From Thermoproteota archaeon (GTDB lineage: Archaea > Thermoproteota > Thermoprotei_A > EX4484-217-1), in the NCBI GenBank assembly GCA_029258915.1, contig JAPDJU010000012.1, positions 62,001 through 126,000 on the forward strand: DNA of 64,000 nucleotides, written 5' to 3'. The stretch's first letter is position 1. Each line of letters starts with the position of its first letter. The notes under the pieces are model-generated. The model did not search any database and had not been told where the DNA came from. It saw only the letters and a program-made list of their open reading frames with translations. Shown here one piece after another: positions 10,621-42,981 of the stretch. The translations under genes and the position numbers were made by a program.

Positions 10621-12000
10621 ATGGTGAATTTCGACATTCTAATAAAGAACGGTTTAGTTGTCACAATGGATTCTAAAAGAAGAGTTATTGAGAAAGGATA
10701 TGTCGCTATTGTTGGCGACAGAATTGCCGAAGTCGGTAAAGATTCTTTGGATAAGTCTGCTGAGAAAGTTATTGATGCTAAAGGAGCTATTGTAATGCCG
10801 GGAATTATATGTGGTCACACACACCTATACGGTATTTTGCTTAGAGGCTCTCCATGGTTCGCCAAAATAGAACCTCCAACAGACTTCATCCAGAACCTTC
10901 ATCGTATATGGTGGGCTATGGATGAAATAATGAACTACGATGATGCCTATGCTAGCGCATTAGCAGCATCCTTTGAAATGATGAAGTCTGGTGTAACACT
11001 TTTTGCAGACACGTTTTCAGGACCTAATGCTATTGAAGGTGTTCTAGATAGAATAGAGGAAGCTGTTAAAAAAGTGGGTATTAGGGGAATTATAGCTTTT
11101 GAGGCAACTGAAAGGCATAGTAAAGAAGAGGGCGAAAGGGGGATAAAAGAAAACATTAGATTTATTGAGAGAGTTAGAAGGGAGAAAGACCCATTAGTCA
11201 CAGGGATGATAAGTATTCATGCATCATTTACTGTTACAAACTGGTTACTAAAGTGGGCTAGAGAACTAGCCAATAAGTATGAAGTACCTATAACACTACA
11301 TACATCAGAGGGTCTAGTAGACCCGTACCATAACCTTGAAAGATATGGTATGAGGACTTTCGAAAGATTATATAGGGTAGGTCTTCTAGGACCTGATGTT
11401 GTAGCTGTTCATGCTGTCCATGTTATTGATGATGAGTTAAAACTTATAGCTAAGACAGGAACAAAAATAGCACATAATCCACTAAGTAATATGCTTAATG
11501 CCGTAGGAGCACCGCCAATACATAAAATGTTAGAAATGGGTATAACAGTAACAATAGGTAATGATGGATACATTTTTGATCCCTTCGAAAACATTAGAGG
11601 AGCATATTTGCTAGCTAAAGTAGCATTCAGAGATCCAAGACTAATAACGCCTTTAGAAGCAATAGAAATGGCAACAATAAACGGGGCAAAAGCTTATGGA
11701 TTAGAAGATAAGCTTGGATCCTTAGAGCCAGGTAAGAGAGCAGACATAATAATTGTAATGCCTGAACTCATGCCAACGCCGTTAAATGCAGAAACAGTTT
11801 ACGGACACTTAGTAAATACCATAGATGGCGATGATGTAAAAACGGTAATAGTTAACGGAAAGATCATTATGGAAAACAGGAAATCATTAACAATATCTGA
11901 AGAAGAAGTAAATAAGATATCACAAGAAATTGCAGCAAAATTCTGGAAAAGACTACTAAGCAAGGGAGAACACCAGTTAGACATAGTTAGACTGGAGTAA
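10621..12000 (+). CDS. amidohydrolase of the SsnA/chlorohydrolase/MTA-SAH deaminase group
   Basis: Metal motifs appear in order: GHTHLYG (HxH), a His in TLHTSEGLVD, VHAVHVID, and the catalytic Asp in IGNDGYIFDP. These define a zinc- or iron-dependent deaminase of the TrzN/AtzA/SsnA/MtaD group, acting on amino-heterocycles such as methylthioadenosine, S-adenosylhomocysteine, guanine or related purines. Length is 459 residues from ATG 10621, which lies seven bases after GGGTGAG; GTG 10609 would add four residues. SsnA is one component of bacterial purine/urate degradation loci, and this window has other components of that type. A second member of this group is at 38093-39487. The exact substrate is unresolved. 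Confidence 0.8.
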   Translation: MVNFDILIKNGLVVTMDSKRRVIEKGYVAIVGDRIAEVGKDSLDKSAEKVIDAKGAIVMPGIICGHTHLYGILLRGSPWFAKIEPPTDFIQNLHRIWWAMDEIMNYDDAYASALAASFEMMKSGVTLFADTFSGPNAIEGVLDRIEEAVKKVGIRGIIAFEATERHSKEEGERGIKENIRFIERVRREKDPLVTGMISIHASFTVTNWLLKWARELANKYEVPITLHTSEGLVDPYHNLERYGMRTFERLYRVGLLGPDVVAVHAVHVIDDELKLIAKTGTKIAHNPLSNMLNAVGAPPIHKMLEMGITVTIGNDGYIFDPFENIRGAYLLAKVAFRDPRLITPLEAIEMATINGAKAYGLEDKLGSLEPGKRADIIIVMPELMPTPLNAETVYGHLVNTIDGDDVKTVIVNGKIIMENRKSLTISEEEVNKISQEIAAKFWKRLLSKGEHQLDIVRLE

Positions 12001-12108
12001 GAAAAATAGTTAAATGAAAACTTATTTTTTACATTTTCATACATTACTTTGGCTTTTCTAAGGAAAAGTAGAAATATTTTTCCTAATTTTATATTAACGG
12101 TGTTAATA

Positions 12109-12378
12109 GTGAAGGTACGTGTAGGATTTTATGGTAGAGCCAGAGACATTGTTGGTGAGGATAAAGCTTTCATAGAATTAAACGTTAAAGAAGGAATTTC
12201 AGTAAAGGATTTGTTAAATATCGTAGCAGAAAGGGTTAGCGAAAAACTTGTTAGAAGATTCCTAAACAAAAGTATAATATTAACCATTGTTGTAAACGGT
12301 ACTCCTATTAATGACTTAAATTATAAACTTACGAATAATTCTATGGTAACATTTATACCGCCAAGCCAAGGAGGGTAA
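12109..12378 (+). CDS. MoaD-type molybdopterin synthase sulfur carrier
   Basis: The 89-residue protein has a beta-grasp fold pattern (VRVGFYGRARDIVGED, then VKDLLNIV and VVNGTPIND) and ends in GG, the tail that is thiocarboxylated to supply sulfur. MoaD gives sulfur to MoaE for the dithiolene of molybdo- or tungstopterin, which GAPOR in this window needs. GTG 12109 is preceded by GGTG at six bases; the longer frame from 12049 would add a hydrophobic leader that does not fit the family. In some archaea MoaD-like proteins also act as ubiquitin-like modifiers (SAMPs), so a dual role is possible. It ends 45 bases from a second GG-ended carrier on the other strand. Confidence 0.8.
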   Translation: MKVRVGFYGRARDIVGEDKAFIELNVKEGISVKDLLNIVAERVSEKLVRRFLNKSIILTIVVNGTPINDLNYKLTNNSMVTFIPPSQGG

Positions 12379-14751: not shown

Positions 14752-14762
14752 GTGGAAAAACA

Positions 14763-15545: not shown

Positions 15546-15550
15546 AATCT

Positions 15551-24695: not shown

Positions 24696-25769
24696 TTATG
24701 TTTTAGGTTCTCCCATGGTCATGGACATAACTGCCTTCTGCACATGTAGCCTATTTTCTGCTTCTTCAAAGTACAGAGATTTCTTGTATGCATCTAAAAC
24801 TTCATCTGTTACTTCCTGACCTCTATCTGCTGGTCCACAGTGCATGTAATATGGTTTTCCAGTTTCTTCTAGAAGATCTAATGTTACTATCCAGTTCTTG
24901 AACTTATTTTGATATGCTTTAGCTCCTTCCTTATCTACAACTTCATTATATGGTGGGAAAAACCTTCTGGGACTCCATGCTTTCGGATATACGAACGTAG
25001 CCCCTTCAAAAGCTTCCTTCATATCGTGAGTTACTGTTAGGCTTCCACCGTACTGGTCAACTAGTTCCTTGGCTTTCCTCATTACTTCATCCATTAGCTC
25101 AAATCCTGGTGGATGAGCTATAACAACTTCTGCTCCAAACATGGCAGCAATTAATGTTACACTTTGAGGTACAGCTAAAGGTTTAAGCCCGCCAGAATAC
25201 GCATAGCTTACTACAAACTTTTTGCCTCTTAAATCTTTAGGCCATCCAAGAGCTTCTAAAGCTGCCATAATGTCCGCTAGCGCTTGGAACGGATGATATA
25301 CATCATCTTCCATGTTAAGTACCGGTATTGTAGCCCATTTAGCAAACTCGTTAATAACCCTGTGACCTCTGCCAATAATCCACTTTGCTGCATCACCGTA
25401 TATTCTAATAGCTATTGCGTTACCATACCTGCTAAGAACTCTTGCAACATCACCAATAGCCTCTGTTTTGTAGGGTATCATATCTTCAGGCAGAGTTGGT
25501 GTGTAGACATCTTGTGGGCTAAGGAAGTGTGCATGGCCGCCTAGCTGGAACATGCCTGCTTCAAAACTATTTCTTGTCCTCAACGATCTGTTATAGAATA
25601 GCATAAACAATGTTTTACCTTGTAAATAGGGTGTTGGCATACCCTTAGAAAACTTCTCTTTAAGATCTTTAGCTGCCTCAATAACCTTTTTTACTTCCTC
25701 TTGTGTATAGTCTATGTTCTTTAGCCAATCTCTACCTTTAAAATATCCCACATACCAGGGTGTGCTCAA
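24696..25769 (-). CDS. knotted carbamoyltransferase, YgeW-like (paralogue A)
   Basis: The enzyme has the transcarbamylase fold: the carbamoyl-phosphate site RSLRTRNSFE near residue 61, DDVYHPFQALADI near 155, and HCGPADRGQEVTDEV near 309 where ornithine transcarbamylase has HCLP. AHPPGFEL and the tail AENRLHVQKAVM place it with the knotted group (AotC/SotC/YgeW), not with the classical OTC. Length is 357 residues. TTG 25769 follows GAGGTGA at seven bases. A second, diverged copy lies 190 bases upstream in the same direction. The acceptor is unknown. With a PLP enzyme and carbamate kinase adjacent, phosphorolysis of an N-carbamoyl compound to carbamoyl phosphate is the likely direction, as inferred for YgeW. 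Confidence 0.8.
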   Translation of the reverse strand: MSTPWYVGYFKGRDWLKNIDYTQEEVKKVIEAAKDLKEKFSKGMPTPYLQGKTLFMLFYNRSLRTRNSFEAGMFQLGGHAHFLSPQDVYTPTLPEDMIPYKTEAIGDVARVLSRYGNAIAIRIYGDAAKWIIGRGHRVINEFAKWATIPVLNMEDDVYHPFQALADIMAALEALGWPKDLRGKKFVVSYAYSGGLKPLAVPQSVTLIAAMFGAEVVIAHPPGFELMDEVMRKAKELVDQYGGSLTVTHDMKEAFEGATFVYPKAWSPRRFFPPYNEVVDKEGAKAYQNKFKNWIVTLDLLEETGKPYYMHCGPADRGQEVTDEVLDAYKKSLYFEEAENRLHVQKAVMSMTMGEPKT

Positions 25770-25961: not shown

Positions 25962-27005
25962 CTAAACTAAGCCACCCATGGTTAATACGAGGATAGCGGC
26001 TTTAGTGAATAAATTGTTTTCTGCCTGTTCGTAAATTACAGATCTCGAAGAGTCCATTACAGCATCGTCTGCTTCATAGTCTCTAAGGACTGGAAGCACA
26101 TGAGTTATTATGCCATGGTCGTCCATTAAATCAAGGTCTTCAACTTTAAGCCTCCAGTCACGATATTTCTTATATATCTCTAACTCCTCCTTACCGAAAG
26201 CTGCAGCTCCAAGTTCAGCAAGTTTTCTTGAACACCAGCTTCTTGGAAATACAACATGGGCTCCTTGAAGTGCTTCCCTATAGTCGTTAACAAATTCTAC
26301 TGAGCCTCCGCTTTCTTTAGCATTTTGTTTAGCCCATTCAATATATTTTTCTGGAAGCTCAAAGCCTGGTGGATGAGCTATAACAACATCCATACCGAAC
26401 CTTGTTGCTATAAGCATGTCCGCGTTAATACTGCAATATCCTCTGATTATTGGAGCATAAGCCCACATAATAACGAATTTTTTACCTTCCACATTACCTA
26501 GTTTTTCCTCTACAGTCATAATGTCTCCAAGTGCTTGGGTTGGATGTTCCTGATCATCAGCCATGTTAATAACTGGTACTCTTGCATGTTTAGCAAATTC
26601 TCTGATAACTTTATGTCCTTCACCATACTTATAGTCTATTGCCTTGTCTAAAATTCTAATACCTACACCATTGCCAAATATTTCGTACATTTTAGCGAGG
26701 TCTTTTAGTGCTTCACCCTCCTTAACTCTAGTCATTCTAGCTTCAACATACTGTGCGTGACCTCCAAGCAGTGTCATTGCCGTTTCAAAAGCAGCCCTAG
26801 TTCTAGTTGATGGCGCATAAAATAACATTATGAAAGTTTTCTTTTCAAGATAATTAGGTAACCCCTTGGCCCCTCTGTAATAATACAGTCTTTTAAGTTC
26901 TTGAGCCAGTTCGATAGCCGCCCTTAGTTCCTCTATAGTCCATTCTTGCGTAGTTACTAGGTCTTTACCAACAAGATCTGAAATTGTAGATTTAAGGAAA
27001 ACCAT
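25962..27005 (-). CDS. knotted carbamoyltransferase, YgeW-like (paralogue B)
   Basis: The carbamoyl-phosphate motif is canonical, PSTRTRAAFET near residue 65, followed by DDQEHPTQALGDIM near 150 and WAYAPIIRGYCSIN. The last recalls the knot region of YgeW (WAYAPS). Then come AHPPGFELPEKYIEWA and HVLPVLRDYEADDAVMD, with Val where the classical enzymes have Cys in HCLP. The tail EQAENNLFTKAAIL matches the group. Length is 347 residues. GAGGTG lies ten bases before ATG 27005. It is likely transcribed from the TATA box at 27045-27052. The pair A/B may make a mixed oligomer or handle different acceptors; their residues differ at the acceptor loop. I rate the family high and the substrate open. Confidence 0.82.
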   Translation of the reverse strand: MVFLKSTISDLVGKDLVTTQEWTIEELRAAIELAQELKRLYYYRGAKGLPNYLEKKTFIMLFYAPSTRTRAAFETAMTLLGGHAQYVEARMTRVKEGEALKDLAKMYEIFGNGVGIRILDKAIDYKYGEGHKVIREFAKHARVPVINMADDQEHPTQALGDIMTVEEKLGNVEGKKFVIMWAYAPIIRGYCSINADMLIATRFGMDVVIAHPPGFELPEKYIEWAKQNAKESGGSVEFVNDYREALQGAHVVFPRSWCSRKLAELGAAAFGKEELEIYKKYRDWRLKVEDLDLMDDHGIITHVLPVLRDYEADDAVMDSSRSVIYEQAENNLFTKAAILVLTMGGLV

Positions 27006-27168: not shown

Positions 27169-28431
27169 TTAAGCATAACGCTCTCTTAAAGTTTTTTCGA
27201 AATCTTCAAGTTTAGGCTCTATTTTCGGTGCATCACCACTTACTTTCTTAACTATATCGGGATCCTTTAGACCATGCCCGGTTATCAGTACCACTACAGT
27301 ATCTCCTCTATCTATAGTTCTCTCCTCCAGCAACTTCATGTACCCTGCTAAACTAGCTACACCCGAGGGCTCGGCAAATATTCCTTCGTACTTTGCAAGC
27401 ATTTTCATAGCCTTAAGTATGAGTTCATCACTTACCTCTTCGGCTACACCATTTGTTTCATGTAGCGCCTTTAAACCTCCATCATGATCCCAAGGATACG
27501 GATCTTCGAGACCTGTAGCTATTGTTTCAGGTTTAGGCCAAGGCTTTACCTTAAATGCTTCAGCTTTCTCATTCCACGCTCTAACGAAAGGCGGATTTCC
27601 TGTAGACTGAATTGCAGCTAATTTAGGTAAGTTATCAATAAATCCTAGTTCCTTAAAGTCTCTAAACCCTTTCCAAACACTTGTAAGTAATGCAGCAGCA
27701 CCTACAGGCACTATAACCCAGTCGGGAATATTCCAATTTAGCTGTTCAACTACTTCATATGATATTGTTTTTGGCCCCTCAATTTGATACGGGTTGAAAG
27801 GTCCGAAGCTTGGACTAGGATACCATCCATACTTTTCATAAGTTAGCTTCATCATTTTCACCGTAGGATCTTCTTTGCCAAGTCCTTTAACTCTGAATAC
27901 TTTAGCACCATAGAATAATAATTGTGCAACCTTACCGTAACCTGCTTCTTCAATTACAAAAGCATATGTTTCTAGGCCTGCTTTAGCACTGTAAGCAGCT
28001 AACGCTGCTGCAGCATTACCGCTCGAAGCAGTAACTGTAACTTTATAGCCGAACTCAACAGCCATACTAACTGCAACAGACATACCACGGTCTTTAAAGC
28101 TTCCAGTAGGATTTCTTGTCTCATCCTTTAAGTACAGGTTTTTAACCCTAAGTTCTTCAGCAAGCCTTTTCGCCTTAATTAGAGGTGTTCCCCCTTCACC
28201 TAAAGTTACTATGTTCTTATCTTCGCTTACAGGCATTAACTCCCTATACCGCCACATGTAAAATCTTCTTTTCTCAAGAATATGCTTTGAAAACACTTCC
28301 TTTACTTTCTTATAATCGTAATATATGTCTAACCTACCTAAGTCCTTGTTTTCGCAAACAATAGGTTTCTGATCTAAGTAGTAGACTTTACCACATCTGC
28401 TGCATTTCAAGTATTTAACGTAGGAAACCAT
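27169..28431 (-). CDS. threonine-synthase-like fold type II PLP enzyme
   Basis: An N-terminal zinc-ribbon-like start (LKCSRCGKVYYLD) precedes the fold II PLP core: GEGGTPLIKAKRL, the PLP lysine in NPTGSFKDRGMSVAVS, SSGNAAAALAAYSAKAGL and the phosphate loop in VPVGAAALLTSVWKG. This is the layout of archaeal threonine synthase (O-phosphohomoserine to threonine). Length 420 is usual. GGGGTAAAAT precedes ATG 28431. The neighbours are not threonine genes: it lies between YgeW-like carbamoyltransferases and carbamate kinase, the place where bacteria have YgeX, a 2,3-diaminopropionate ammonia-lyase of the same fold. Threonine synthase remains the best family name, but a lyase role in this pathway is a fair alternative. 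Confidence 0.75.
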   Translation of the reverse strand: MVSYVKYLKCSRCGKVYYLDQKPIVCENKDLGRLDIYYDYKKVKEVFSKHILEKRRFYMWRYRELMPVSEDKNIVTLGEGGTPLIKAKRLAEELRVKNLYLKDETRNPTGSFKDRGMSVAVSMAVEFGYKVTVTASSGNAAAALAAYSAKAGLETYAFVIEEAGYGKVAQLLFYGAKVFRVKGLGKEDPTVKMMKLTYEKYGWYPSPSFGPFNPYQIEGPKTISYEVVEQLNWNIPDWVIVPVGAAALLTSVWKGFRDFKELGFIDNLPKLAAIQSTGNPPFVRAWNEKAEAFKVKPWPKPETIATGLEDPYPWDHDGGLKALHETNGVAEEVSDELILKAMKMLAKYEGIFAEPSGVASLAGYMKLLEERTIDRGDTVVVLITGHGLKDPDIVKKVSGDAPKIEPKLEDFEKTLRERYA

Positions 28432-28607: not shown

Positions 28608-29558
28608 ATGAGCGAGAATAAGGGTTTAGTTACAATAGCTTTAGGAGGCAATGCCTTCCTTCAAAAGGGTCAAAAAGGAACAGTTGAGGAACAGTGGGAT
28701 AATGTTGTTAAAGCTATGAAGCAAGTAGCCGACATTATAGAAAGAGGTTATAGAGTGATTTTAACTCACGGTAATGGACCTCAAGTAGGTAATATTTTGG
28801 AGTGGATGGATGCTTTAAGGGAGAAAATACCGCCATTAACAATGGATTTTGCTAATGCAATGACTCAGGGATGGATAGGTTACATGATTCAGCAAGCACT
28901 AACAAATGAGCTTAGAAGAAGAGGTATAAATAGACATGTAGTTACCGTAGTAAACCGTGTTCTCGTAAGGAAGGATGACCCAGCATTCCAAAATCCAACA
29001 AAATATGTTGGTCCATATTACGATGAGGAAACTGCTAAGAGAATTGCTAGGGAGAAAGGGTGGGCTATGAAACCTGACCCTAGAGGTGGATGGAGAAGAG
29101 TTGTTCCATCACCCGACCCTGTAGGTAATGTAGAAATAGAAGCAATAAGAACTCTACTTATAAACGGATTCATAGTCGTAGCTTCAGGTGGTGGTGGAAT
29201 ACCAGTAATTGAAGAAAATAGAGAAATTAAGGGTGTTGAAGCAGTTATTGATAAAGACCTTGCAGGTGAAAGGCTGGCTTCTCTTGTTAGAGCAGATTAT
29301 TTCGTAATAGTAACAGATGTTGAAGGAGTCTACTTGCACTTTAGAACTCCGCAGCAAAAGCTTTTAAGAAAATTAACTATTAGTGAAGCAGAAAAACTAT
29401 ACAGAGAAGGCCACTTCCCCCCTGGAAGCATGGGTCCTAAAGTATTAGCAGCAATAAGGTTCATAAAGAATGGAGGGGAAAAAGCAGCAATAGGCCACCT
29501 ATATAAGGCACTAGATATTTTAGAAGGAAGAGCAGGAACAACCATAGTACCTGATTAG
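28608..29558 (+). CDS. arcC: carbamate kinase
   Basis: Carbamate kinase converts carbamoyl phosphate and ADP to ATP, CO2 and ammonia, a substrate-level phosphorylation step. The sequence shows the family start [33 protein letters not shown], the ADP-site segments and [24 protein letters not shown] near the C-terminus. Length is 316 residues, as usual. It is divergent from the PLP enzyme and lies beside two carbamoyltransferases, and no arginine deiminase is in the window. So the carbamoyl phosphate probably comes from phosphorolysis of a carbamoyl compound by the YgeW-like enzymes. The reverse, carbamoyl phosphate synthesis, occurs in some thermophiles and cannot be excluded. Confidence 0.93.
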
Positions 29559-29684: not shown

Positions 29685-29745
29685 GACGCATATGAGACTT
29701 TTCTATAGTCCCACTGTGTTTTGACCTGTACTTTGGGTGTTTTTG

Positions 29746-31320
29746 TTGAGCGAAGAGAAGCCATCGGCAGTGTTGATGAAAGAAATTACTAAGAGGTTCC
29801 CTGGCGTAGTTGCCTTAGACAATGTAACATTCGAGGTAAGGCGAGGTGAAATACATGGTCTTCTTGGAGAAAACGGTGCTGGAAAAACAACATTAATGAA
29901 CATACTTTACGGCGTATATAGGGCTGACGAGGGAGAAATACTTATTAACGGTAAGAGAGTCTCTATAAAATCTCCTAAAGACGCTATAAAGCTTGGAATA
30001 GGTATGGTTCCCCAACATTTCAAACTTGTTATGGCACATTCTGTTGTTGAGAATGTTATTTTAGGGTTGAAGGAGTTCGGATTAGTACTTAATCTTAAGG
30101 AAGCTTCTAGGAAAATTAGGGAATTAGCTGAACGATACGGTTTTAGAATAGACCCTAAAGCTAAAATATGGCAACTATCTATGGGTGAAAGACAGTATGT
30201 GGAGCTTCTCAAAGCATTAATAAGAAACGCGAACATACTTATTCTCGACGAACCTACAACAGTTCTTACACCTCAAGAAACAAGAGAGCTATTTAAAACT
30301 CTCAAGAAAATGAAAGAAGAAGGGAGATCAATAATATTTATAACACATAAACTTGAGGAAGCATTAACAGTTTGCGATAGAATAACGGTCCTTAGAAGAG
30401 GACATGTAATAGGAACGGTTACCCCCCAGGAAGTTACGGAAGCAGACTTAGCAAAAATGATGGTTGGTAGGGAAGTTCTTTTCAGAATTAAGAGAGAACA
30501 TAGAAAAGTTATTATTGAAACTCCAATACTTAAAGTTGAAAACTTAAATGTTTTAAGCGATAAAGGTGTTTTAGCCGTAAAGAACGTTTCTTTCGAAGTT
30601 TATCCGGGTGAAATTTTCGGTATTGCAGGTATTGCTGGAAGCGGTCAAGAAGAGCTTGCAGAAGCTATTGCTGGTCTAAGAAAACCTTTAAGAGGTAAAA
30701 TAATAATCGAGGGACAGGATGTAACCGAAGCCTCACCTAAAAAAATTTTTGAACTAGGTGTTGCATACATTCCAGAGGATAGAATTGGCGTTGGAATATT
30801 ACCTAACTTAACAGTTTGGGAGAACATAGTTTTAAGACATCATAGATATCCGCCTATGGCCAAGAATGTGTTCTTATTAGATTTCAATGAAATATACGGG
30901 TTCGTGAATAGGAGAATTAAAGAACTTAACGTAATAACATCAAGCATTTTTGCCCCTGCAAAAACACTTTCAGGTGGAAACATACAAAGACTCATCTTAG
31001 CTAGAGAGCTAGCTGAAAATCCCCGGAGAAAAACTAAACTTATAATTGCAGTTTATCCTACAAGAGGTCTTGACGTTGGAGCAACAGAATATGTTAGAAA
31101 AGTGCTTTTACGGCAAAGAGATAAAGGTATAGCTGTTCTTTTAATATCTGAAGACCTTGAAGAAATACTTATGTTAAGCGATAGAATAGCTGTAATCCAT
31201 AATGGAGAAATTATGGGTATAGTTTCAGCCGAAGAAGCAAACATCGAAGAAATAGGGTTAATGATGGGTGGAGTGCTAAAGAAAACTTCTCAAAAGGTTA
31301 AAGAAAACCCTAAAACCTAA
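29746..31320 (+). CDS. BMP/nucleoside-type ABC importer, double ATPase subunit
   Basis: Two ABC domains are fused in one 524-residue chain, as in the Bmp/Nup/RnsB and sugar-type (RbsA) ATPases. The first has Walker A GENGAGKTTLMNILYG, signature LSMGERQYVELLKAL and Walker B ILILDEPTTVLTP. The second has the degenerate Walker A GIAGSGQEELAEAI and signature LSGGNIQRLILAREL. This asymmetry is normal for the class. TTG 29746 follows GGGTG at six bases, whereas GTG 29737 would overlap that site. It heads an operon with two permeases, and a Tat-exported BMP binding protein is downstream. Known members import purine nucleosides, guanosine or xanthosine, and this fits the deaminases of the window. Confidence 0.87.
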   Translation: MSEEKPSAVLMKEITKRFPGVVALDNVTFEVRRGEIHGLLGENGAGKTTLMNILYGVYRADEGEILINGKRVSIKSPKDAIKLGIGMVPQHFKLVMAHSVVENVILGLKEFGLVLNLKEASRKIRELAERYGFRIDPKAKIWQLSMGERQYVELLKALIRNANILILDEPTTVLTPQETRELFKTLKKMKEEGRSIIFITHKLEEALTVCDRITVLRRGHVIGTVTPQEVTEADLAKMMVGREVLFRIKREHRKVIIETPILKVENLNVLSDKGVLAVKNVSFEVYPGEIFGIAGIAGSGQEELAEAIAGLRKPLRGKIIIEGQDVTEASPKKIFELGVAYIPEDRIGVGILPNLTVWENIVLRHHRYPPMAKNVFLLDFNEIYGFVNRRIKELNVITSSIFAPAKTLSGGNIQRLILARELAENPRRKTKLIIAVYPTRGLDVGATEYVRKVLLRQRDKGIAVLLISEDLEEILMLSDRIAVIHNGEIMGIVSAEEANIEEIGLMMGGVLKKTSQKVKENPKT

Positions 31321-31337: not shown

Positions 31338-32501
31338 ATGATGGCTATCAGGATCCCTGGAACAAAATATGCTGTGAAAGTTGAAAAAAGACTCATCGTA
31401 AGAAGAGAAATACCAGCAATAGTATCTATAGCATCAGCGATAGCCGGTATTCTTTTAGGCGGTCTCATCTTTATAGCAGTAGGTATTTCGCCTATAGATG
31501 TTTATTCAAGAATAGGGAGAATAGCAATAAGTCCTACAGCACTTATGGGAGCTATCGAAATAGCTTTACCTATAATGTTTACATCCATGGCTTTAGTGCT
31601 CCCCTTTAGAATGGCGTTTTATAACATTGGTGGTGAAGGTCAGTTTGAAGTAGGAGCAATAGCTGCAATGATACCTGTAATATTTTATTGGAGCGGTATG
31701 GACCTACCGCAGTTTTTATATCTACCTATAATGTTTATGTTAGCATTCATAGCTGGCGGTTTCTGGGGCCTTTTACCAGCATTCTTAAGAGCTAAATGGA
31801 GGGTAAACGAAATACTAGTGACATTAATGCTTAACACTATTTCACTACAGTTAATATGGTGGCTTACAACGCCTGGAGGCCCATGGAATGAAGCAAATCC
31901 TGCATTTAAGGAAAGATATTTAGCTTATCTAAAAGAGTTAGGTGTCCATTTAATACCAGGCTTTAAAGGAACACCTGTAATCCCTGAGTTTGCTAGGCTG
32001 CCTAGAATACCTGGTACATTAGTTAATTCAGGGATATTGGTGGCTATTATTATAGCGGCAATACTGTACTTTATATGTACAAAAACGTTGCTAGGATATG
32101 AAGTTAGAGTTGTTGGTGATAGTGAGCGAGGAGCTATGTATGCTGGGATAAATTATTTGAAATTAGTTTTAATAGTAATGTTCATAAGCGGAGGTCTTGC
32201 AGGGCTAGGAGGTTTTATAGGTATTACAGCGTTTCTACCTAAGCTATCGCCTGAAATAGGTGTTGCAGGTTACGGTTACGCTGGGATAATTGTTGCATGG
32301 CTTGCAAGGTTAAACCCAATAGCCTGTCTTCTTGTTTCATTTTTCTTTGGAATATTGACAAAGTCCGCTGATCTGTTACAGCAGGAACTAAAGATTTCAA
32401 GGTTTATTGCTGTAGGTTTTGAAGGACTGATATTCATACTCTTAGTCTTGGGCGATTTCTTTGTACACTACAAGGTAAGATTAATTAAAGTTAGGAGGTA
32501 A
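31338..32501 (+). CDS. BMP/nucleoside-type ABC permease 1
   Basis: The 387-residue permease has about ten hydrophobic helices and the COG4603 type signatures: IALPIMFTSMALVLPFRMAFYNIGGEGQ, VNEILVTLMLNTIS, and GYEVRVVGDSERGAMYAGINYLK, which is the ATPase contact loop. The ATG begins 18 bases after the ATPase gene ends. It pairs with the second permease to form the channel of a nucleoside importer. Its long N-terminal extension and the 190-225 insert (LKELGVHLIPGFKGTPVIPE) are external loops seen in related permeases. Family is clear; substrate is taken from the family. Confidence 0.86.
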   Translation: MMAIRIPGTKYAVKVEKRLIVRREIPAIVSIASAIAGILLGGLIFIAVGISPIDVYSRIGRIAISPTALMGAIEIALPIMFTSMALVLPFRMAFYNIGGEGQFEVGAIAAMIPVIFYWSGMDLPQFLYLPIMFMLAFIAGGFWGLLPAFLRAKWRVNEILVTLMLNTISLQLIWWLTTPGGPWNEANPAFKERYLAYLKELGVHLIPGFKGTPVIPEFARLPRIPGTLVNSGILVAIIIAAILYFICTKTLLGYEVRVVGDSERGAMYAGINYLKLVLIVMFISGGLAGLGGFIGITAFLPKLSPEIGVAGYGYAGIIVAWLARLNPIACLLVSFFFGILTKSADLLQQELKISRFIAVGFEGLIFILLVLGDFFVHYKVRLIKVRR

Positions 32502-32506
32502 GTGCG

Positions 32507-33466
32507 ATGGTAGAACTAACTATGATAAATCAATTTCTAATAGGTGCATTAACTGTCGGTACAATATACCTCATAGCAACGCTTGGTGAAGTCCTTGCAG
32601 AACGCTCCGGGATAGTCAACTTAGGGCTTGAAGGGCTTATGGAAGTCGGTGCCACGGTAGGTATTATAGTGGCTATTTTCACGGAGAATCCATGGCTAGG
32701 TTTTCTAACAGCATTCATTACTGCAGCTATTATCTCAGTTATACATGCTTTTGCATGTATAACACTAAAACTTAATCAGTTTGCAAGCGGGTTAGCATTA
32801 TATATTTTCGGATTGGGTATCGGTATAACGTTTAGGGGATACGCTAGGGACGTAATGTTAGGGCCGAAAGAATTAATGAAAATACCTAAAATAAGACTAT
32901 ATCCTGTAAAAATACCGTTGCTAGGCGATTTACCCGTTATAGGTGCATTATTTAGCTTAAATGTCATGGCTTATTTTGCAGTTATCTTAAGTATAGTGTT
33001 CTGGTTTATACTTTTCAGAACGAGAATAGGCTTAGACATTAGGTCTGTTGGAGAAAATCCTGCAGCAGCTGATGCGGCTGGAATAAATGTTTTTAGACTA
33101 AGATACATAGCGGTGATAATTGGCGGAGGTATGGCTGGTTTATCAGGTGCATATCTTATGCTAGCACATACGCCGCAGATTATGGGTGCTCCAATAATAT
33201 TAGGAAGAGGATGGATAGCAATAGCGCTGGTAATATTCTCCTTCTGGAATCCTTTAAGAGCACTTTTAGGTGCTTATTTATTTGGAGGTTTAGAAATAGC
33301 ATATTTCTGGCTTCAAGGGATTGAAATATTTAAAGGAGTAATTCCACTACTTAAAGCAGTACCTCACGTGTCAGCAATAATACTATTAACCATTATGTCC
33401 ATTGAAGCGCTTAGAAGAAGAATAGGTGCCCCAGAAGCCCTCGGGAAACCGTATTCTAGAGAATGA
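32507..33466 (+). CDS. BMP/nucleoside-type ABC permease 2
   Basis: The 319-residue permease shows the COG1079 pattern: ERSGIVNLGLEGLMEVGATVG near the N-terminus, LDIRSVGENPAAADAAGINVFRLRYIAVI as the ATPase-contact loop, and GGGMAGLSGAYL. It starts five bases after permease 1 stops, so translation is likely coupled. Together the two form the heterodimer used by guanosine, inosine or xanthosine importers. The promoter of the binding protein lies after it, about 55-65 bases before the next gene, so that gene can be expressed at a higher level on its own. Confidence 0.86.
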   Translation: MVELTMINQFLIGALTVGTIYLIATLGEVLAERSGIVNLGLEGLMEVGATVGIIVAIFTENPWLGFLTAFITAAIISVIHAFACITLKLNQFASGLALYIFGLGIGITFRGYARDVMLGPKELMKIPKIRLYPVKIPLLGDLPVIGALFSLNVMAYFAVILSIVFWFILFRTRIGLDIRSVGENPAAADAAGINVFRLRYIAVIIGGGMAGLSGAYLMLAHTPQIMGAPIILGRGWIAIALVIFSFWNPLRALLGAYLFGGLEIAYFWLQGIEIFKGVIPLLKAVPHVSAIILLTIMSIEALRRRIGAPEALGKPYSRE

Positions 33467-33617: not shown

Positions 33618-34976
33618 ATGGGTGAAGTCACTAGAAGAGACTTCCTTAAGGGGCTTATAGGAGGTCTCGTTGTAGGAGCAGCATTAGGTCTGGGAGGAGG
33701 TTATGCAGCAGCACCTAAAGGTGTAGTTACAGAGACAGTAACGAGAACAGAAACAGTAACTGAAACAGTAACAGCGTCTCCCTCGCCGAGTCCTCCACCA
33801 CCCGCTAAGAAAATTAAAGCAGGATTTATTTACGTAGGGCCGATAGGAGATTATGGATGGACATATGCACATAATTCTGGAAGACTTTACGTTGAAAAAC
33901 AATTTGGAGGAACTGTGGAAACCGTATATATTGAAAGCGTTCCAGAAGCCGAAGCCTTACCTAAAATAGAGTCTTTAATTGCTGAAGGATGTAAGGTAAT
34001 ATTTACTACAAGCTTCGGCTTTATGGACCCAACACTTGAAGCTGCAAAGAAATATCCCGACGTATGGTTCTGGCATTGCTCCGGCTATAAACGATGGGAT
34101 AATATGGGAACTTACTTCGCAGAACTATATCAACCATACTACTTATGCGGTTTAGTTGCTGGAGCCATATCACAAACGCTTAAGTTCGGCTATGTTGCAG
34201 CTTATCCTATACCTGAAGTTGTAAGACACATTAACAGCTGGGTTCTAGGAATATGGGAAGGATTATGGCGTAGATATAAACGTGGAGATCTAAGCTTAGA
34301 TGATTTAAAGAAAGTAGAAGTACATGTTAAATGGTTGTACTCATGGTATGATCCGCCAGCTGCAACCGATGCTGCGAGAAGCATGGTTGAAATGTACGAT
34401 GCTGACGTACTAGCTTTTACAGAAGACTCGCCGGCAACATTACAGGTTGCTGAAGAATATCAGAAAGCAGGAAAGAAAGTTTGGAGCTATAGCCACTATA
34501 GTAACATGAGAGATTATGGTCCAACAGCCCATTTAATAGGACAATTAGTCGACTGGGGTTTAATGTACGAATACATTTTAGCATACTATCTTGCAGGGGT
34601 AGCTAGAAGTATGGACCTATGGTGGCTAATGGGTGATGGAGGAGATATTAGAGAGGGATGGAGAAAGGGTAAAGGAGCCGCGTTCATATGGCTTGATGAA
34701 TGGGGAGACTTGAAAGCAGAGCTTGCAGCTAAAGGAGTACCAGACTGGGCAATAGATCTACTACTTAAAAGAGAAACATTAATGAAAGAAAGATACTGGG
34801 ATCCATGGAGTGGAAGCTTCTGGGCACCAATATTCAAGGAATTGACAGGCAAAGAAGGAATAGTTGACAGAGAAGGGAATGTAAGAATAAAGCCGGGAGA
34901 AGTAGCAGACCATGACCTATTATGGAGTATCGACTGGTTTGTATGGGGTCTAGCAGAACCTGTACCTAAGGGCTAA
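33618..34976 (+). CDS. BMP family substrate-binding protein with Tat signal
   Basis: The N-terminus MGEVTRRDFLKGLIGGLVVG carries a textbook twin-arginine motif (RRDFLK), followed by a hydrophobic h-region and a Thr/Glu/Val then Ser/Pro linker (residues about 35-65). The mature domain starts IKAGFIYVGPIGDYGWTYAHN, the BMP/PnrA/Med start, where the purine-binding Trp/Asp region lies. At 452 residues it is about 100 residues longer than usual BMP lipoproteins, with the extra part at the C-terminus. It belongs to the importer 29746-33466 and binds nucleoside or another solute outside the cell after folding inside. TatA and TatC genes begin 110 bases downstream. Role is well supported, exact ligand is not. 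Confidence 0.85.
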   Translation: MGEVTRRDFLKGLIGGLVVGAALGLGGGYAAAPKGVVTETVTRTETVTETVTASPSPSPPPPAKKIKAGFIYVGPIGDYGWTYAHNSGRLYVEKQFGGTVETVYIESVPEAEALPKIESLIAEGCKVIFTTSFGFMDPTLEAAKKYPDVWFWHCSGYKRWDNMGTYFAELYQPYYLCGLVAGAISQTLKFGYVAAYPIPEVVRHINSWVLGIWEGLWRRYKRGDLSLDDLKKVEVHVKWLYSWYDPPAATDAARSMVEMYDADVLAFTEDSPATLQVAEEYQKAGKKVWSYSHYSNMRDYGPTAHLIGQLVDWGLMYEYILAYYLAGVARSMDLWWLMGDGGDIREGWRKGKGAAFIWLDEWGDLKAELAAKGVPDWAIDLLLKRETLMKERYWDPWSGSFWAPIFKELTGKEGIVDREGNVRIKPGEVADHDLLWSIDWFVWGLAEPVPKG

Positions 34977-35373: not shown

Positions 35374-35442
35374 AACAATACAGTATAGTAAAGGACTTAA
35401 AAAATAATAGAGAACTGTTTAGTCTAATAGTTAGTGATAATC

Positions 35443-38092: not shown

Positions 38093-39487
38093 TTACTCCA
38101 CGGGCCAATGTATTATTGGCTTTATTCCCGTTCTTTCCACTACTTCATGTCCTCTCTTCTCTGCTTTCTCAAGGATTTTCTCTTCACTTACTGTTAGTAT
38201 TTTCCTGTTCTCCATTACTATTTTTCCGTCTATTATTACTGTTTCTACGTCTTGCCCTTGAGCTGCGTAGACTAAGTGAGTTACAGGGTTTAGCATTGGT
38301 ATTAGGTGTGGTTTCCAGTAGTCTATGATTATTATATCTGCTTTCTTACCTACTTCTATTGACCCTATTTCCCTATCTAATCCTAGAGCTTTTGCACCAT
38401 TTATTGTCGCCATTTCTATTACTTGTTCGGCTGTTATTGCTTTAGGATCTCCATTTATTAGCGCTTGACCTAGTGCTGCTATTTTCATCTCCTCAACCAT
38501 GTCGTAATTATCATTGCTTGGCCCTCCATCGCATCCTAATCCTACATTTACTCCTTCTCTAAGCATTTTAGCTACTGGTGTTAGCCCTGAGCCAAGCTTC
38601 ATGTTACATGATGGGTTGTGGGCTACATGGGTTCCTGTTTTTGCAAGCAATTTTATTTCCTCATCAGTAACCCAAACTACATGTATTAAAACAACATTGG
38701 ACCCAAGCATTCCTATGTAATTACAGAACTCTACTGGCCTCATTCTAAACTCTTTCTTAAAATATCCTAGATCCTCCTTAGCTTCTGCTAAATGCATTGT
38801 TATCCCTATTTTCAGCTCTTTCGCCTTAGCTACTATTTCACGGTATGTTTCAATAGTGACAGCTCCAGGGGTTCTAGGTGCAAACCATACAAATATTCTA
38901 CCATGTTTACCATGCCATTTCTGATACATGTGTAAAACCTCTTTCATACCATACTCTTTAGTTTCAATAAGTCCTGAATGAATAATGCTTTTCTCTAAAG
39001 CATAACCAGGTGTGTCCATTACGTGTCTTCCGAGAACGCCTCTCATACCTATTTGTTCAAGTGCTTCAGCAATACCTTCCATACCATATCTTCCTGAAAG
39101 ACCTGCTTCAAGAAACGTTGTTGTCCCTGATTTCAGCATTTCAACCATACATAGTAGCGCACTTGTTTTACCATCTTCTTTAGTATAGTTTCCTTGAAGA
39201 GGCCAAACATAGTCTTTAAGCCAAGGTATTAACTTAACATACTGTGCCATACCTCTAATCATAGCTTGAGCCATATGTACATGGAGATCTATAAGACCTG
39301 GCATAACTATTTTTCTTGAAGCGTCAATTACAATATCTGAATATTCCTTATATTCTCTGTCAAGTTTTTCCCTCTTACCAACAGCAACTATTCTATTGCC
39401 TTCGATAGCTATTGCTCCATCCCTGATAATCCTTCTATTTTTATCTACTGTAATAAACCAGCCCCCTCTAATGTAAATATCCGCCAT
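38093..39487 (-). CDS. amidohydrolase, amino-heterocycle deaminase type (MTA/SAH/guanine deaminase-like)
   Basis: The metal sites occur in order: LIDLHVHMAQAMIRG (HxH), TMHLAEAKED, LIHVVWVTDEE and LGCDGGPSNDNYDM (catalytic Asp). They define the TrzN/AtzA/SsnA/MtaD class with 464 residues. The metal-near HNPSCNMKLGSG is also typical. The product should hydrolyse an amino group from a purine-like ring. It resembles the enzyme at 10621-12000 only at the family level, so the two probably have different substrates; guanine deaminase, SAH or MTA deaminase are candidates. It is divergent from adenine deaminase across about 330 bases. ATG 39487 has no strong ribosome binding site. Confidence 0.8.
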   Translation of the reverse strand: MADIYIRGGWFITVDKNRRIIRDGAIAIEGNRIVAVGKREKLDREYKEYSDIVIDASRKIVMPGLIDLHVHMAQAMIRGMAQYVKLIPWLKDYVWPLQGNYTKEDGKTSALLCMVEMLKSGTTTFLEAGLSGRYGMEGIAEALEQIGMRGVLGRHVMDTPGYALEKSIIHSGLIETKEYGMKEVLHMYQKWHGKHGRIFVWFAPRTPGAVTIETYREIVAKAKELKIGITMHLAEAKEDLGYFKKEFRMRPVEFCNYIGMLGSNVVLIHVVWVTDEEIKLLAKTGTHVAHNPSCNMKLGSGLTPVAKMLREGVNVGLGCDGGPSNDNYDMVEEMKIAALGQALINGDPKAITAEQVIEMATINGAKALGLDREIGSIEVGKKADIIIIDYWKPHLIPMLNPVTHLVYAAQGQDVETVIIDGKIVMENRKILTVSEEKILEKAEKRGHEVVERTGIKPIIHWPVE

Positions 39488-39820
39488 AATAAGAGACCAC
39501 CAAGTAAAATAATTTAAGAAACATATGTAAAAGTAATGGTTAATTTAAATTTCTAAAAGTAATATTTCATATCTTTGACTTCATAACTGTATTTATTATT
39601 TCATTAACACTTACTTTATTACCTAAGATTTAAGTAGAGCTTTTTAACAACACAAGGTTCTCTTGGTGTTGAGGTTTAAACACGTCATTAAAAACTATAT
39701 ACTTTACACGCTGTGTTATGGTAATTTAGGGATGTGTATAAAGCTAATATAGTTGATAACATATTTAGTCTACAAAAAGGTTGTTCAAAACTTAATTTCT
39801 AAACCAAGGTGTATTACATA
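39488..39820. other. divergent intergenic region between two deaminase genes
   Basis: About 330 AT-rich bases separate the leftward amidohydrolase from adenine deaminase. An imperfect TACACGCTGTGTTA segment (39705-39718) and a nearby TTAAAAACTATATACT box (about 39688-39703) may belong to the rightward promoter. I saw no coding frame, RNA gene or clean repeat. Confidence 0.4.
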
Positions 39821-41608
39821 ATGTATATTAGTGAACTTAATGCTGGGATTATGCGGGAACTTGTTTTAACAGCTTTAGGTAAATTAAAAGCTGATTTAGT
39901 TTTGAAAAATGCTTCTCTAGTTAACGTTTACACTTCTGAAGTTATTGAAAACATAAGTATTGGTATAAAAAATGGTAGAATCGCATATGTTGGTGAAAAC
40001 ATTAAACATTTAATAGGTTCTTCAACTCAGGTTATTGATGTTAAAGGAATGTATGTTACCCCTGGTTTCATGGATTCTCATATTCATATTGAAAGTAGTA
40101 TGTTAACTCCATTAGGATTTTCTGAAGCCGTACTACCTCATGGTACAACAGCTGTTTTCGTGGATCCTCATGAAATAGCTAATGTTCTGGGTGTTAAAGG
40201 TGTTGAGTTTTTCATTAAAGAAGCATTGGAAGCCCCAATCAGAATTTTTATAAATGTTCCATCATGTGTTCCATCAACACCGGAGGATACCACTGGAGCC
40301 ATCTTAGGATATAAGGAAGTTGAACATTTGCTTAAAAACCCGTATACCATAGGGTTAGCTGAGGTAATGGATTTCTATGGTGTTTTAGCTTTAAGAGAAG
40401 ATATTATTAGGAAAATTGAAGCTGCACATAAGTTAGGTAAGGTCGTGGACGGACATGCACCAAGCCTTTCAGGTAAGTATCTTCAAGCATATATCGCTGC
40501 AGGAATATCCTCAGACCATGAGAGTATAAAAGCTGAAGAAGTTATTGAAAAAGCTAGGTTAGGAATGTATGTTATGCTTAGAGAAGGCAGTGCATGGAGA
40601 GATTTAGCTAAAACTGTAAAAGCAATTACTGAGGGAAAGATAGATACACGAATGCTACTTTTAGCAAGTGATGATAGGAATCCTTATAATATAGTTCATG
40701 AAGGTCATATGGACTATCTTATTAGAAAAATTATTAGCCTCGGTGTAGATCCTATTAAAGCTATTCAAATGGCAACGTTGAACATAGCTTTAAGGTTTAA
40801 AGTGGATGACCATTTAGGGGGAATAGCGCCGGGCAAATTAGCTGATATGGTTGTTCTAGATAGTTTAGATAAGGTTAATGTAAAAATGGTTTTCATAGAT
40901 GGTAAACTTTTAGCTAAAGAAGGTAAGCCATTATGGCATGTACCTGAAGGTTACAAAGCGCCTAAACACCTTTATGAAACAATTAATATTAAAAGAAAAA
41001 TTTCTCCTGAAGACTTCAAAATAAAAGCTCCAATAGTAGAAGGCTCTGTTAAAGTTAAGGTTATAGGTATAGTTCCTGAAAAAGCTGTAACTAAAAAACT
41101 TATAATGAATATACATGTTAAAAACGGGTATGTGCTGTCTGAAATTAAAAGAGATATTTTAAAAATTGCAATGATTGAAAGGTATAGCGGTAATGGACGT
41201 GTAGGTGTGGGGTTAGTTCACGGATTCGGATTTAAATATGGAGCATTAGCCTCATCAATAGCTCACGATAGCCATAACATATTAATTGTCGGTGTAAGTG
41301 AAAAAGACATGGCAACTGCTGCTAATAAGGTAATAGAAATCGGTGGTGGAATAGTCTTCGCCGCCGACGGGAAAATAAGAGCAGCTGTAGAACTTCCTAT
41401 TGCAGGCATTTTAAGTGACAAACCTGTGAAAGAAGTTGTAGAAGAATTAGAGAAACTAACTTTAGAAACAAAGAAAGCCGGCTCTAAACTTAGTGAACCA
41501 TACATGACGCTTTCAATTTTAGGTTTAATTGTTATTCCAGAGTTAAGAATAACTGATAAAGGATTATTTGATGTGGTAAATAATAAATTTACAAGTTTAT
41601 TTGCATAA
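39821..41608 (+). CDS. ade: adenine deaminase (Ade family amidohydrolase)
   Basis: Adenine deaminase converts adenine to hypoxanthine and ammonia. The sequence has the family hallmarks: GFMDSHIHIESSMLTPLGF (metal site), GTTAVFVDPHEIANVLG, DGHAPSLSGKYLQAYIAAGISSDHES, LLLASDDRNP, and the C-terminal adenine-deaminase domain with VGLVHGFGFKYGALASSIAHDSHN and AADGKIRAAVELPIAGILS. Length is about 595 residues, as expected for the Bacillus-type enzyme. I chose ATG 39821, ten bases after AAGGTG; GTG 39809 would add four residues. The cyclic amidase gene follows 14 bases later. It supplies the first committed step of adenine breakdown. Confidence 0.93.
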   Translation: MYISELNAGIMRELVLTALGKLKADLVLKNASLVNVYTSEVIENISIGIKNGRIAYVGENIKHLIGSSTQVIDVKGMYVTPGFMDSHIHIESSMLTPLGFSEAVLPHGTTAVFVDPHEIANVLGVKGVEFFIKEALEAPIRIFINVPSCVPSTPEDTTGAILGYKEVEHLLKNPYTIGLAEVMDFYGVLALREDIIRKIEAAHKLGKVVDGHAPSLSGKYLQAYIAAGISSDHESIKAEEVIEKARLGMYVMLREGSAWRDLAKTVKAITEGKIDTRMLLLASDDRNPYNIVHEGHMDYLIRKIISLGVDPIKAIQMATLNIALRFKVDDHLGGIAPGKLADMVVLDSLDKVNVKMVFIDGKLLAKEGKPLWHVPEGYKAPKHLYETINIKRKISPEDFKIKAPIVEGSVKVKVIGIVPEKAVTKKLIMNIHVKNGYVLSEIKRDILKIAMIERYSGNGRVGVGLVHGFGFKYGALASSIAHDSHNILIVGVSEKDMATAANKVIEIGGGIVFAADGKIRAAVELPIAGILSDKPVKEVVEELEKLTLETKKAGSKLSEPYMTLSILGLIVIPELRITDKGLFDVVNNKFTSLFA

Positions 41609-41622
41609 ACGGTGGTTAATCT

Positions 41623-42981
41623 ATGCTATTAGACTTAAAAATAGTTAATGCTAAAATAGCTACTATTAGCGGTATTTACGAAGGGGCCATAGGTGTTTCT
41701 AAGGGTAAGATAAAAGCTATAGTTAAGAACGGAGATGTGTTGAAAGCTGAAAAACAAATAGATGCTAAAGGAAAACTTATTTTGCCAGGAGCTATAGACG
41801 TCCATGCACACATATATGACCCTAAATTTGTTCATAGAGAAGATTTTGAACATGGAACATTAGCTGCTATTTTTGGAGGAGTAACTACGGTTATAATTAT
41901 GCCTTTAGACACTCACATAGACAATGTTAACATACTTAAGCACTATATTGAGGTTGGTGAAAGAGAATCTTACACGGATTTCTCAATTCAAGGAGGCTTC
42001 GTTAAATCAGATAACATTTCCAATGTTGAAGAATTAGCTAAAAATGGTGTTAAAGCATTTAAAATGTTCACATGTAAACCATATATGGCTTCAGATTACG
42101 TATTTATTAGAATGCTTGAGTTAACTAGGAAACTGGACATTTTAATTACAGTTCATGCTGAAGATGAAGCTATTTTAGAGCACAGTATTAGAAAGGCTTT
42201 AGAAACTGGACGGAAAGACCCAATAATACATCATATTTCAAGACCTCCTTTAGCTGAAAAAGCAGCTATAGAAAAACTTCTTACATACCTTGAATATATA
42301 AGTGGAAACATGCATTTATGCCATATTACGACAAGCTATGCTGTAAAAGCTATTGAAGAAGGGAAAAGGAAAGGATTAAACATATCTGCCGAAGTATGTA
42401 CACATCATCTATTATTTACATATAATGATGCTGAAAAATGGGGTCCCTATTTAAAAATGAACCCGCCGCTAAGATCAAGAGAACATGTAGAAGCCTTATG
42501 GAAGGGACTACAAAATGGAGTAATAGATACTGTAACCACAGATCATGCACCAGGAAGCAGGGATGAAAAGGAAGTAGGATGGGAAGATATATGGAGGGCA
42601 TGGGGTGGCGTTGCTGGAGTAGAAACTTTATTGCCAATAATGTTTACCTATGGTTTTAAGCGTAATATTTTAAGCTTAGAAGATATTATAAGGCTCTTAT
42701 CTTTTAATCCCGCTAAGATATTTGGCTTACAGTTTAAAGGAGATATTAAGCCAGGTTTAGATGCTGATCTTCTAATAGTAGATCCCGGTTTTGCTAAGAA
42801 AGTTAAAGCCGAAGATTTACACTATAAGAATCCGTGGACACCTTATGAAGGTTTAAATCTTTATGGTTGGCCTGAAGTAGTTATCCTCAGAGGTAATGTT
42901 ATCATTGAAAACAGTGAGCTTATAGAAGTTAAAGGTTTAGGCAGATTTATTAAAGCAGCTAATGCATTTTCGAGAATATGA
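41623..42981 (+). CDS. cyclic amidohydrolase, allantoinase/hydantoinase/dihydroorotase family
   Basis: Cyclic amide hydrolase with a binuclear metal centre: AIDVHAHIYDP (HxH), the carbamylated Lys in VKAFKMFTCKPY, VHAEDEAIL, ICHITT-like LCHITTSYAVKAI, AEVCTHHLLF and the catalytic Asp in TTDHAPGSRDEKE. NPWTPYEGLNLYGWP near residue 405 is a segment typical of allantoinases. The 452-residue length fits. It is 14 bases after adenine deaminase and should be co-transcribed. It may open a hydantoin, dihydropyrimidine or ureide ring formed from purine breakdown, giving an N-carbamoyl product for the YgeW-like enzymes. The bacterial counterpart in this setting is HyuA. Exact substrate unresolved. Confidence 0.82.
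   Translation: MLLDLKIVNAKIATISGIYEGAIGVSKGKIKAIVKNGDVLKAEKQIDAKGKLILPGAIDVHAHIYDPKFVHREDFEHGTLAAIFGGVTTVIIMPLDTHIDNVNILKHYIEVGERESYTDFSIQGGFVKSDNISNVEELAKNGVKAFKMFTCKPYMASDYVFIRMLELTRKLDILITVHAEDEAILEHSIRKALETGRKDPIIHHISRPPLAEKAAIEKLLTYLEYISGNMHLCHITTSYAVKAIEEGKRKGLNISAEVCTHHLLFTYNDAEKWGPYLKMNPPLRSREHVEALWKGLQNGVIDTVTTDHAPGSRDEKEVGWEDIWRAWGGVAGVETLLPIMFTYGFKRNILSLEDIIRLLSFNPAKIFGLQFKGDIKPGLDADLLIVDPGFAKKVKAEDLHYKNPWTPYEGLNLYGWPEVVILRGNVIIENSELIEVKGLGRFIKAANAFSRI

Follow-up and report, generated by a model that had tools for sequence, protein, structure and literature searches.

A putative archaeal pathway for reductive purine degradation with paired transcarbamylases in a Thermoproteota genome

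The window analyzed here is the whole 64,000-nucleotide stretch C7:62001-126000 of an archaeal genome (1.6 Mb, 15 contigs, 99.7% complete), and its nearest matches are metagenome-assembled genomes of Desulfurococcales. Together with genes upstream on the same contig and a gene on contig C4, it very probably encodes an archaeal reductive, oxygen-independent purine-degradation pathway that would end in carbamoyl phosphate and ATP. An earlier note on this DNA had proposed an archaeal counterpart of the bacterial ygeW-ygeX-hyuA-arcC-ssnA set, and the phylogenetic profile, synteny and trees described below support it. The genes that it listed are all present, with open reading frames (ORFs) at every position, give or take alternative start codons, and hidden Markov model (HMM) scores (NCBIfam/Pfam models), read against the curated equivalog cut-offs, agree with their classes. 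Neither Rfam families nor tRNA genes were found in the window. The window genes under study are as follows:

10609..12000, + strand: SsnA-clade aminohydrolase, proposed opener of the reduced purine ring (best NCBIfam model SsnA)
24696..25769, - strand: transcarbamylase A, putative knotted-type catabolic carbamoyltransferase, proposed ureido-group phosphorolysis (OTCace domains)
25962..27005, - strand: transcarbamylase B, paralog with an altered second-substrate site (OTCace domains)
27169..28431, - strand: PLP1, fold-type II pyridoxal phosphate (PLP) enzyme of the threonine synthase family, proposed 2,3-diaminopropionate ammonia-lyase (PRK08197)
28608..29558, + strand: carbamate kinase, carbamoyl phosphate + ADP to ATP (TIGR00746)
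29737..31320, + strand: ATP-binding cassette (ABC) importer ATPase, sugar/nucleoside class (two ABC_tran domains)
31338..32501, + strand: ABC importer permease (ABC_B6_perm_2, 144 bits)
32507..33466, + strand: second ABC importer permease (from its place in the importer operon; homolog in L043)
33618..34976, + strand: PnrA-like (Bmp) binding protein with Tat signal, proposed to bind purine nucleosides (PF02608, TIGR01409)
38093..39487, - strand: MtaD/GuaD-class amidohydrolase deaminase, possibly acting on purine bases or nucleosides (5'-deoxyadenosine deaminase model)
39809..41608, + strand: adenine deaminase (TIGR01178)
41623..42981, + strand: cyclic amidohydrolase, candidate HyuA for hydantoin ring opening (DHOase/allantoinase/hydantoinase family)

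Further genes of the same genome, located outside the window, complete the set:

C7:47520-48548, upstream of the window: PLP2, CysK/CBS-like PLP enzyme
C7:48554-52192, upstream of the window: three-subunit xanthine dehydrogenase (XDH)
C7:52615-53775, upstream of the window: UacX/PreA-type flavo-iron-sulfur reductase (PF01180 and two 4Fe-4S motifs)
C4:148927-150111: YgeY hydrolase (340 bits, curated cut-off 321)

The best model for transcarbamylases A and B is N-acetylornithine carbamoyltransferase (AOTC), with 263 and 223 bits, respectively, against a cut-off of 288. They reach 205-224 bits on ornithine carbamoyltransferase (OTC) models and only 139-147 bits (143-147 for A) on the YgeW models, whose cut-offs are 453 and 500. 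In the tree, both cluster with YgeW and AOTC, are separated from OTC and aspartate carbamoyltransferase (ATC) (support 98), and form separate clades (support 96 for A and 95 for B), each spanning archaea and bacteria. From their sequences, A and B are taken to be ancient paralogs, two instead of one YgeW. Both exhibit the extended 120s loop and the insertion at the proline-rich loop that mark knotted transcarbamylases (PMC4581275), and these are absent from the OTC and ATC of the genome. Described earlier as YgeW-like and knotted, the two proteins keep the knotted type, as judged from these signature loops only (criteria of PMC4581275), but do not belong to the YgeW family. The proline-rich loop reads KPLAVPQ in A against KPLSVPQ in YgeW, while B is weaker there, with an insertion that has one proline. 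A conserves K252 in 57/57 and E144 in 56/57 sequences; in B, R replaces K252 and A replaces E144 in 28/28 sequences, V is frequent at C294 and G at R322, and the carbamoyl-phosphate core (SxRT, R112, H148, Q151) is invariant. Other residues stand in both proteins at the AOTC positions W77, E92, and N185, and the OTC signature DxxxSMG is absent, a knotted-type KxW/RxW standing in its place.

A resembles YgeW (YTCase) in the KPL[AS]VPQ loop, the extended 120s loop, the 240s-loop lysine, and the linkage to carbamate kinase and SsnA. In contrast, their identity is ~31%, A has an insert of ~10 residues in its 80s loop and differs at HCGP/HCLP, and the segments corresponding to the additional N- and C-terminal helices and the extended 240s loop of YgeW are absent from A and B in the alignment. 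With AOTC and succinylornithine carbamoyltransferase (SOTC), A shares the knotted-type fold signatures, E144, and K252, but the AOTC residues just named are missing, B has A144 and R252, and no arginine gene cluster surrounds them. A looks like the YgeW counterpart, and B would have another second substrate or be a partner subunit. The near-perfect co-occurrence of the two, reported below, suggests that they work together. In a Cloacimonadota locus (L062:7010-7993), a third transcarbamylase of 327 residues, which reaches no curated cut-off, accompanies A and B.

PLP1 scores 354 bits on the threonine synthase model PRK08197 (cut-off 303) and forms its own clade (support 99). It shares the fold, the SFKDRGM lysine motif and a score over cut-off with threonine synthase. 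However, the PLP1 clade has PSFG[PV]FNPYQ where the T. thermophilus threonine synthase has VNSVNPHR, and A, G, P/V, and Q occupy the positions of T88, N154, S155, and R160, the residues of that enzyme which we take to bind the substrate phosphate. Two more members of the threonine synthase family are encoded in the genome, and its other candidates for this enzyme, L071 and L073, are likewise missing most of these four residues. PLP1 is confined to genomes that encode the pathway set, and the other genomes keep a different threonine synthase (339-364 bits). The reading of this gene as a fold II PLP enzyme stands, but its equation with ygeX does not, as it belongs to the threonine synthase family. 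Because it is strictly linked to the purine set, PLP1 is the best candidate for a diaminopropionate lyase replacing YgeX, and PLP2, which recurs beside it, could share or follow the lyase step.

For the 10609 protein, SsnA is the best HMM (386.7 bits, curated cut-off 444), and the tree places it with E. coli SsnA in one clade, apart from the MtaD/GuaD types (support 99). The 38093 protein obtains 408 bits with the 5'-deoxyadenosine deaminase model, under its cut-off. Both had been called SsnA/MtaD-type deaminases; the class is correct, but the second is of the MtaD/GuaD kind and not an SsnA. The carbamate kinase assignment is firm (415.8 bits, cut-off 358.25), with 42% identity to E. coli YqeA.

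The earlier note had found neither a xanthine dehydrogenase nor AegA in the window. Indeed, no XDH lies in the window, but one is present ~10 kb upstream on the same contig, and a UacX-class enzyme beside it would fill the reductive step. They came to light, together with PLP2, through searches of the genome for the DHO_dh and PALP families and inspection of the 16 kb preceding the window, from which the XDH and the reductase lie 8-14 kb away. UacX proteins are members of the PreA family (172-210 bits with its model). The one encoded here ends, like E. coli PreA, with a pair of CxxCxxCxxxC motifs, of which the genome's own PyrD has none. Its class, set from PF01180 and these motifs, is predicted to be UacX and not AegA/YgfK. 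The XDH scores 559 bits on the XdhA model, under the cut-off of 780. Besides YgeY, a DapE/ArgE-type M20 hydrolase is encoded at the window start (1-728; C7:61484-62728) and has a sibling on contig C6; considered as YgeY, it was rejected as DapE-like, with 571 bits to the succinyl-diaminopimelate desuccinylase model.

The neighborhoods of 62 loci encoding a relative of transcarbamylase A were surveyed. The same gene classes recur side by side in Desulfurococcales, Nitrososphaeria, Hermodarchaeota, Chloroflexota, and one Cloacimonadota genome. Arginine or lysine genes, the neighbors that the earlier note had set against its own proposal, are not what recurs around A and B; SsnA, carbamate kinase, UacX, PLP enzymes, and XDH are. 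In Desulfurococcales, the run B-A-carbamate kinase-SsnA-UacX-PLP1 lies on a single strand in L007, L008, L011-L017, and L063, and L022 has in addition XDH, PLP2, an HyuA-like gene, and a Bmp importer. The carbamate kinase gene directly adjoins transcarbamylase genes in many relatives, and the 38093-type deaminase does so in L006, L018, L034, L037-L042, and genome G049. The Nitrososphaerales locus L034 comprises adenine deaminase, XDH twice, A, PLP2, PLP1, B, the deaminase, and SsnA. Hermodarchaeota (L037-L042) have SsnA, the deaminase, A, B, and PLP1, with UacX in most, and SsnA adjoins A in several Chloroflexota. In the Cloacimonadota locus L062, homologs of A, B, carbamate kinase, and PLP1 are joined with SsnA and with proteins resembling E. 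coli YgfK (47% identity), YgeY (54%), and XdhD (35%). Lastly, the single-contig genome G049 harbors the full set inside a 35-kb island: YgeY, PLP1, PLP2, UacX, SsnA, carbamate kinase, A, B, the deaminase, adenine deaminase, an HyuA-like gene, XdhC, and three XDH subunits.

Several other genes accompany these clusters. Between SsnA and carbamate kinase of G049 lies a DUF917/S-Me-THD gene (S-methyl-thiohydantoin desulfurase-like; L100:15297-16427), a possible hydantoin-ring enzyme. A gene of the metallo-beta-lactamase fold, ~330 residues long, stands immediately after PLP1 in nine clusters (L007:16412-17401 and eight others), and its product could be an alternative amidase or hydantoinase. Two IF-2B family genes and a PfkB kinase gene adjoin the cluster at L007:17390-20425 and in relatives, hinting at a coupling to archaeal nucleoside/pentose bisphosphate metabolism; one of these IF-2B genes reaches 249 bits with ribose-1,5-bisphosphate isomerase (cut-off 314). 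In another Desulfurococcales type (L021:11145-12868, L020, L023, L024, L026), a 316-residue gene without Pfam match and a radical SAM gene lie between A and carbamate kinase. Two XDH candidates were rejected, the 863-residue protein of L045 being alanyl-tRNA synthetase and the 1246-residue protein of L025 isoleucyl-tRNA synthetase. The 796-, 500-, and 398-residue genes beside A in L019-L026 were likewise discarded as pathway genes (STT3-like, unknown, and MFS transporter, respectively).

Gene distribution was profiled in 144 genomes of the class, each at least 85% complete, as the order itself is represented by two genomes only (thresholds: UacX >480 bits; SsnA >670; PLP1 >440; XDH >800 or two fragments, as in G045). 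Transcarbamylase A occurs in about a quarter of them (35/144). These 35 genomes have B in 34, UacX in 34, PLP1 in 33, an XDH ortholog in 32, SsnA in 31, and YgeY in 23 cases, and A, B, UacX, SsnA, PLP1, and XDH are all absent from 108/144 genomes. Strong orthologs of the 10609 SsnA are found in none of the 109 genomes devoid of A, and the four SsnA absences among A genomes are fragmented assemblies. The set is also absent among close relatives of carriers. In G097 (genus g42), for example, A, B, UacX, SsnA, and PLP1 are missing although other genomes of its genus carry them; a YgeY-like protein (281 bits) and an XDH paralog are retained. The comparative evidence is strong that XDH, UacX, SsnA, the transcarbamylases, and PLP1 are passed on as a single unit.

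The ABC importer had been assigned to the nucleoside class, in agreement with its ABC_tran domains and PnrA-like (Bmp) protein. Its four genes span 29737-34976. The binding protein matches PF02608 (107 bits) and the Tat signal model TIGR01409 (19.6 bits) and has homologs in L022 and L043, where homologs of the 31338 permease also stand beside A or B; the ATPase is linked to A or B in L022, L043, and L059. By analogy, the importer may carry purine nucleosides. A TatC gene (35434-36345) directly follows it, and this exporter may serve the Tat-signal binding protein. Two further ABC importers lie between SsnA and the transcarbamylases, one SsuA/NMT1-like (13795-16588) and one Liv/urea-like branched (16623-21545), and they were not seen in the clusters of relatives, except the near-identical L005. 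The adenine deaminase, predicted earlier at 39821, is clear (590.7 bits, cut-off 472.5), with homologs in the G049 island and in L006. The 41623 protein, expected to be allantoinase/hydantoinase-like, belongs to the dihydroorotase/allantoinase/hydantoinase family, although it scores under every equivalog cut-off. It displays 27% identity to E. coli HyuA and has a 41% identical homolog in the G049 island. As PyrC is separately encoded elsewhere in the genome, it is a spare cyclic amidohydrolase.

The proposed pathway is read from gene content, families, motifs, trees, co-occurrence, and synteny, from which all substrates and reactions are deduced. Purine nucleosides or bases would enter by the PnrA-type importer and be deaminated by adenine deaminase and the MtaD/GuaD-class deaminase. 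The molybdenum XDH-type enzyme would adjust the oxidation level (xanthine/urate/yanthine), and the UacX-type flavo-iron-sulfur enzyme would then reduce and de-aromatise the ring. SsnA would open the reduced ring, and the cyclic amidohydrolase the hydantoin, yielding 2,3-diureidopropionate. A and B, with YgeY where present, would strip the ureido groups, at least one of them as carbamoyl phosphate, which carbamate kinase would convert to ATP. Finally, PLP1, perhaps with the CysK-like PLP2, would convert 2,3-diaminopropionate to pyruvate and ammonia. The evidence is weaker for nucleoside import, for 41623 as HyuA, for the assignment of the ureido groups, and for the replacement of YgeX.

Several points weigh against this pathway. 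The 10609, 24696, 25962, and 41623 proteins score under the curated cut-offs of SsnA, YgeW, AOTC, and allantoinase, and the enzyme activities are predicted from sequence and context. The XDH is equally like XdhA and XdhD, and hence its direction, xanthine oxidation or urate reduction, is unreadable from sequence. The HyuA candidate stands apart from the core cluster in most relatives. YgeY is not detectable in 12/35 pathway genomes, several of them single-contig. A search with E. coli YgeX against the retrieved loci, including the PALP genes of the genome, found no homolog at E 1e-8, and the last pathway step therefore rests on an unproven replacement. The Fisher tests on co-occurrence (p = 3e-32 to 8e-16 overall, and 1e-27 to 3e-32 for the six genes A, B, UacX, SsnA, PLP1, and XDH) ignore the shared ancestry of the genomes.

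A more specific version of the pathway is possible, although the balance tilts against it: both ureido groups of 2,3-diureidopropionate would be phosphorolysed, one each by the specialised enzymes A and B, so that each purine would yield two carbamoyl phosphates and as many as two ATP where one is otherwise formed; YgeY would be dispensable, and diaminopropionate would be cleaved by a new ammonia-lyase derived from the threonine synthase family. The dispensability of YgeY is proposed because those 12 genomes have A and B. A strict replacement of YgeY by B was dropped for the source genome when YgeY was found on C4, and is kept only for genomes without it.

Of the other explanations, reductive pyrimidine degradation fares best but is improbable. 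The UacX-like protein would be PydA/PreA, the amidohydrolases PydB, and the transcarbamylases would convert N-carbamoyl-beta-alanine to beta-alanine and carbamoyl phosphate. Membership of UacX in the PreA family fits this (the UacX proteins of relatives are 27-29% identical to E. coli PreA), and the idea of a catabolic beta-alanine transcarbamylase appears in the literature (PMC4581275). However, uracil breakdown has no place for the XDH of 32/35 genomes; SsnA, YgeY, adenine deaminase, and a diaminopropionate-type PLP enzyme do not belong to a pyrimidine route; one of the two transcarbamylases would be superfluous; and L062 couples the same transcarbamylases to YgfK, SsnA, YgeY, and XdhD.

Fermentation of citrulline or arginine, with A and/or B as catabolic OTCs feeding carbamate kinase, is still harder to sustain. 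Carbamate kinase does adjoin the transcarbamylases as in arginine deiminase loci, and both match OTC models, but their KxW/RxW motif is not that of OTC, SsnA, UacX, and XDH are inherited together with them, and arginine deiminase, which the earlier note did not see either, was not identified among the annotated neighbors. Moreover, a canonical OTC (430 bits, cut-off 306) and an ATC (372 bits, cut-off 237) are encoded elsewhere in the genome, so that A and B are not needed for arginine or pyrimidine synthesis and are spare for catabolism. Least credible is a chance mixture of biosynthetic genes, namely an anabolic AOTC/SOTC for arginine and a true threonine synthase: AOTC is the best curated model of A and B, and NCBIfam would name 27169 threonine synthase, but the AOTC scores are under cut-off with the signature residues replaced, the neighbors are not arginine genes, PLP1 is found in pathway genomes alone, and the source genome has two other members of its family.

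If we retain reductive purine degradation, the kind of pathway is known from bacteria, and its archaeal occurrence, the paired transcarbamylases, and the replaced PLP enzyme are new. The reductive uric acid pathway of anaerobic bacteria was described in 2025 (PMC12507026; commentary PMC12990295) and has been regarded as restricted to selected anaerobic bacteria (PMC12990295). We found no report of an archaeal version among the open-access papers that were searched, and PMC12507026 and PMC12990295 name bacteria only. The present set would extend the anaerobic urate pathway to a second domain and to hyperthermophiles, its carriers being Thermoproteota (including single-contig Desulfurococcaceae-like genomes), Nitrososphaeria, and Asgard archaea, and would explain genes that pipelines would annotate as ornithine carbamoyltransferase and threonine synthase. 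The commentary names as an open question the identity of the first ureido group to be removed and of the enzyme that removes it (PMC12990295); the obligatory pairing of transcarbamylases bears on this question, which becomes testable with two probably heat-stable enzymes.

In ammonia-oxidising archaea, the AllFGH/AllK oxamate/oxalurate branch of allantoin fermentation, for which no upstream purine genes were reported (PMC12625717), provides a similar ending of archaeal purine breakdown by carbamoyl phosphate and carbamate kinase, but with a three-gene AllFGH transcarbamylase and without XDH, UacX, or SsnA. The bacterial reductive urate pathway shares with the present set the XDH, UacX-class reductase, SsnA, YgeY, transcarbamylase, and carbamate kinase classes, as well as the same clustering, and the XDH accessory protein XdhC is found in the G049 island. 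The E. coli set, xdhD-ygfM-ygfK-ssnA-hyuA-ygeW-yqeA-ygeY-ygeX (PMC12507026), differs in having one YgeW instead of two transcarbamylases, YgfK instead of UacX, and YgeX instead of threonine-synthase-like and CysK-like PLP enzymes, and in its non-archaeal host. In the C. difficile variant, UacX replaces YgfK and goes with UacY, without carbamoyltransferase (PMC12507026), whereas here UacX occurs together with carbamoyltransferases.

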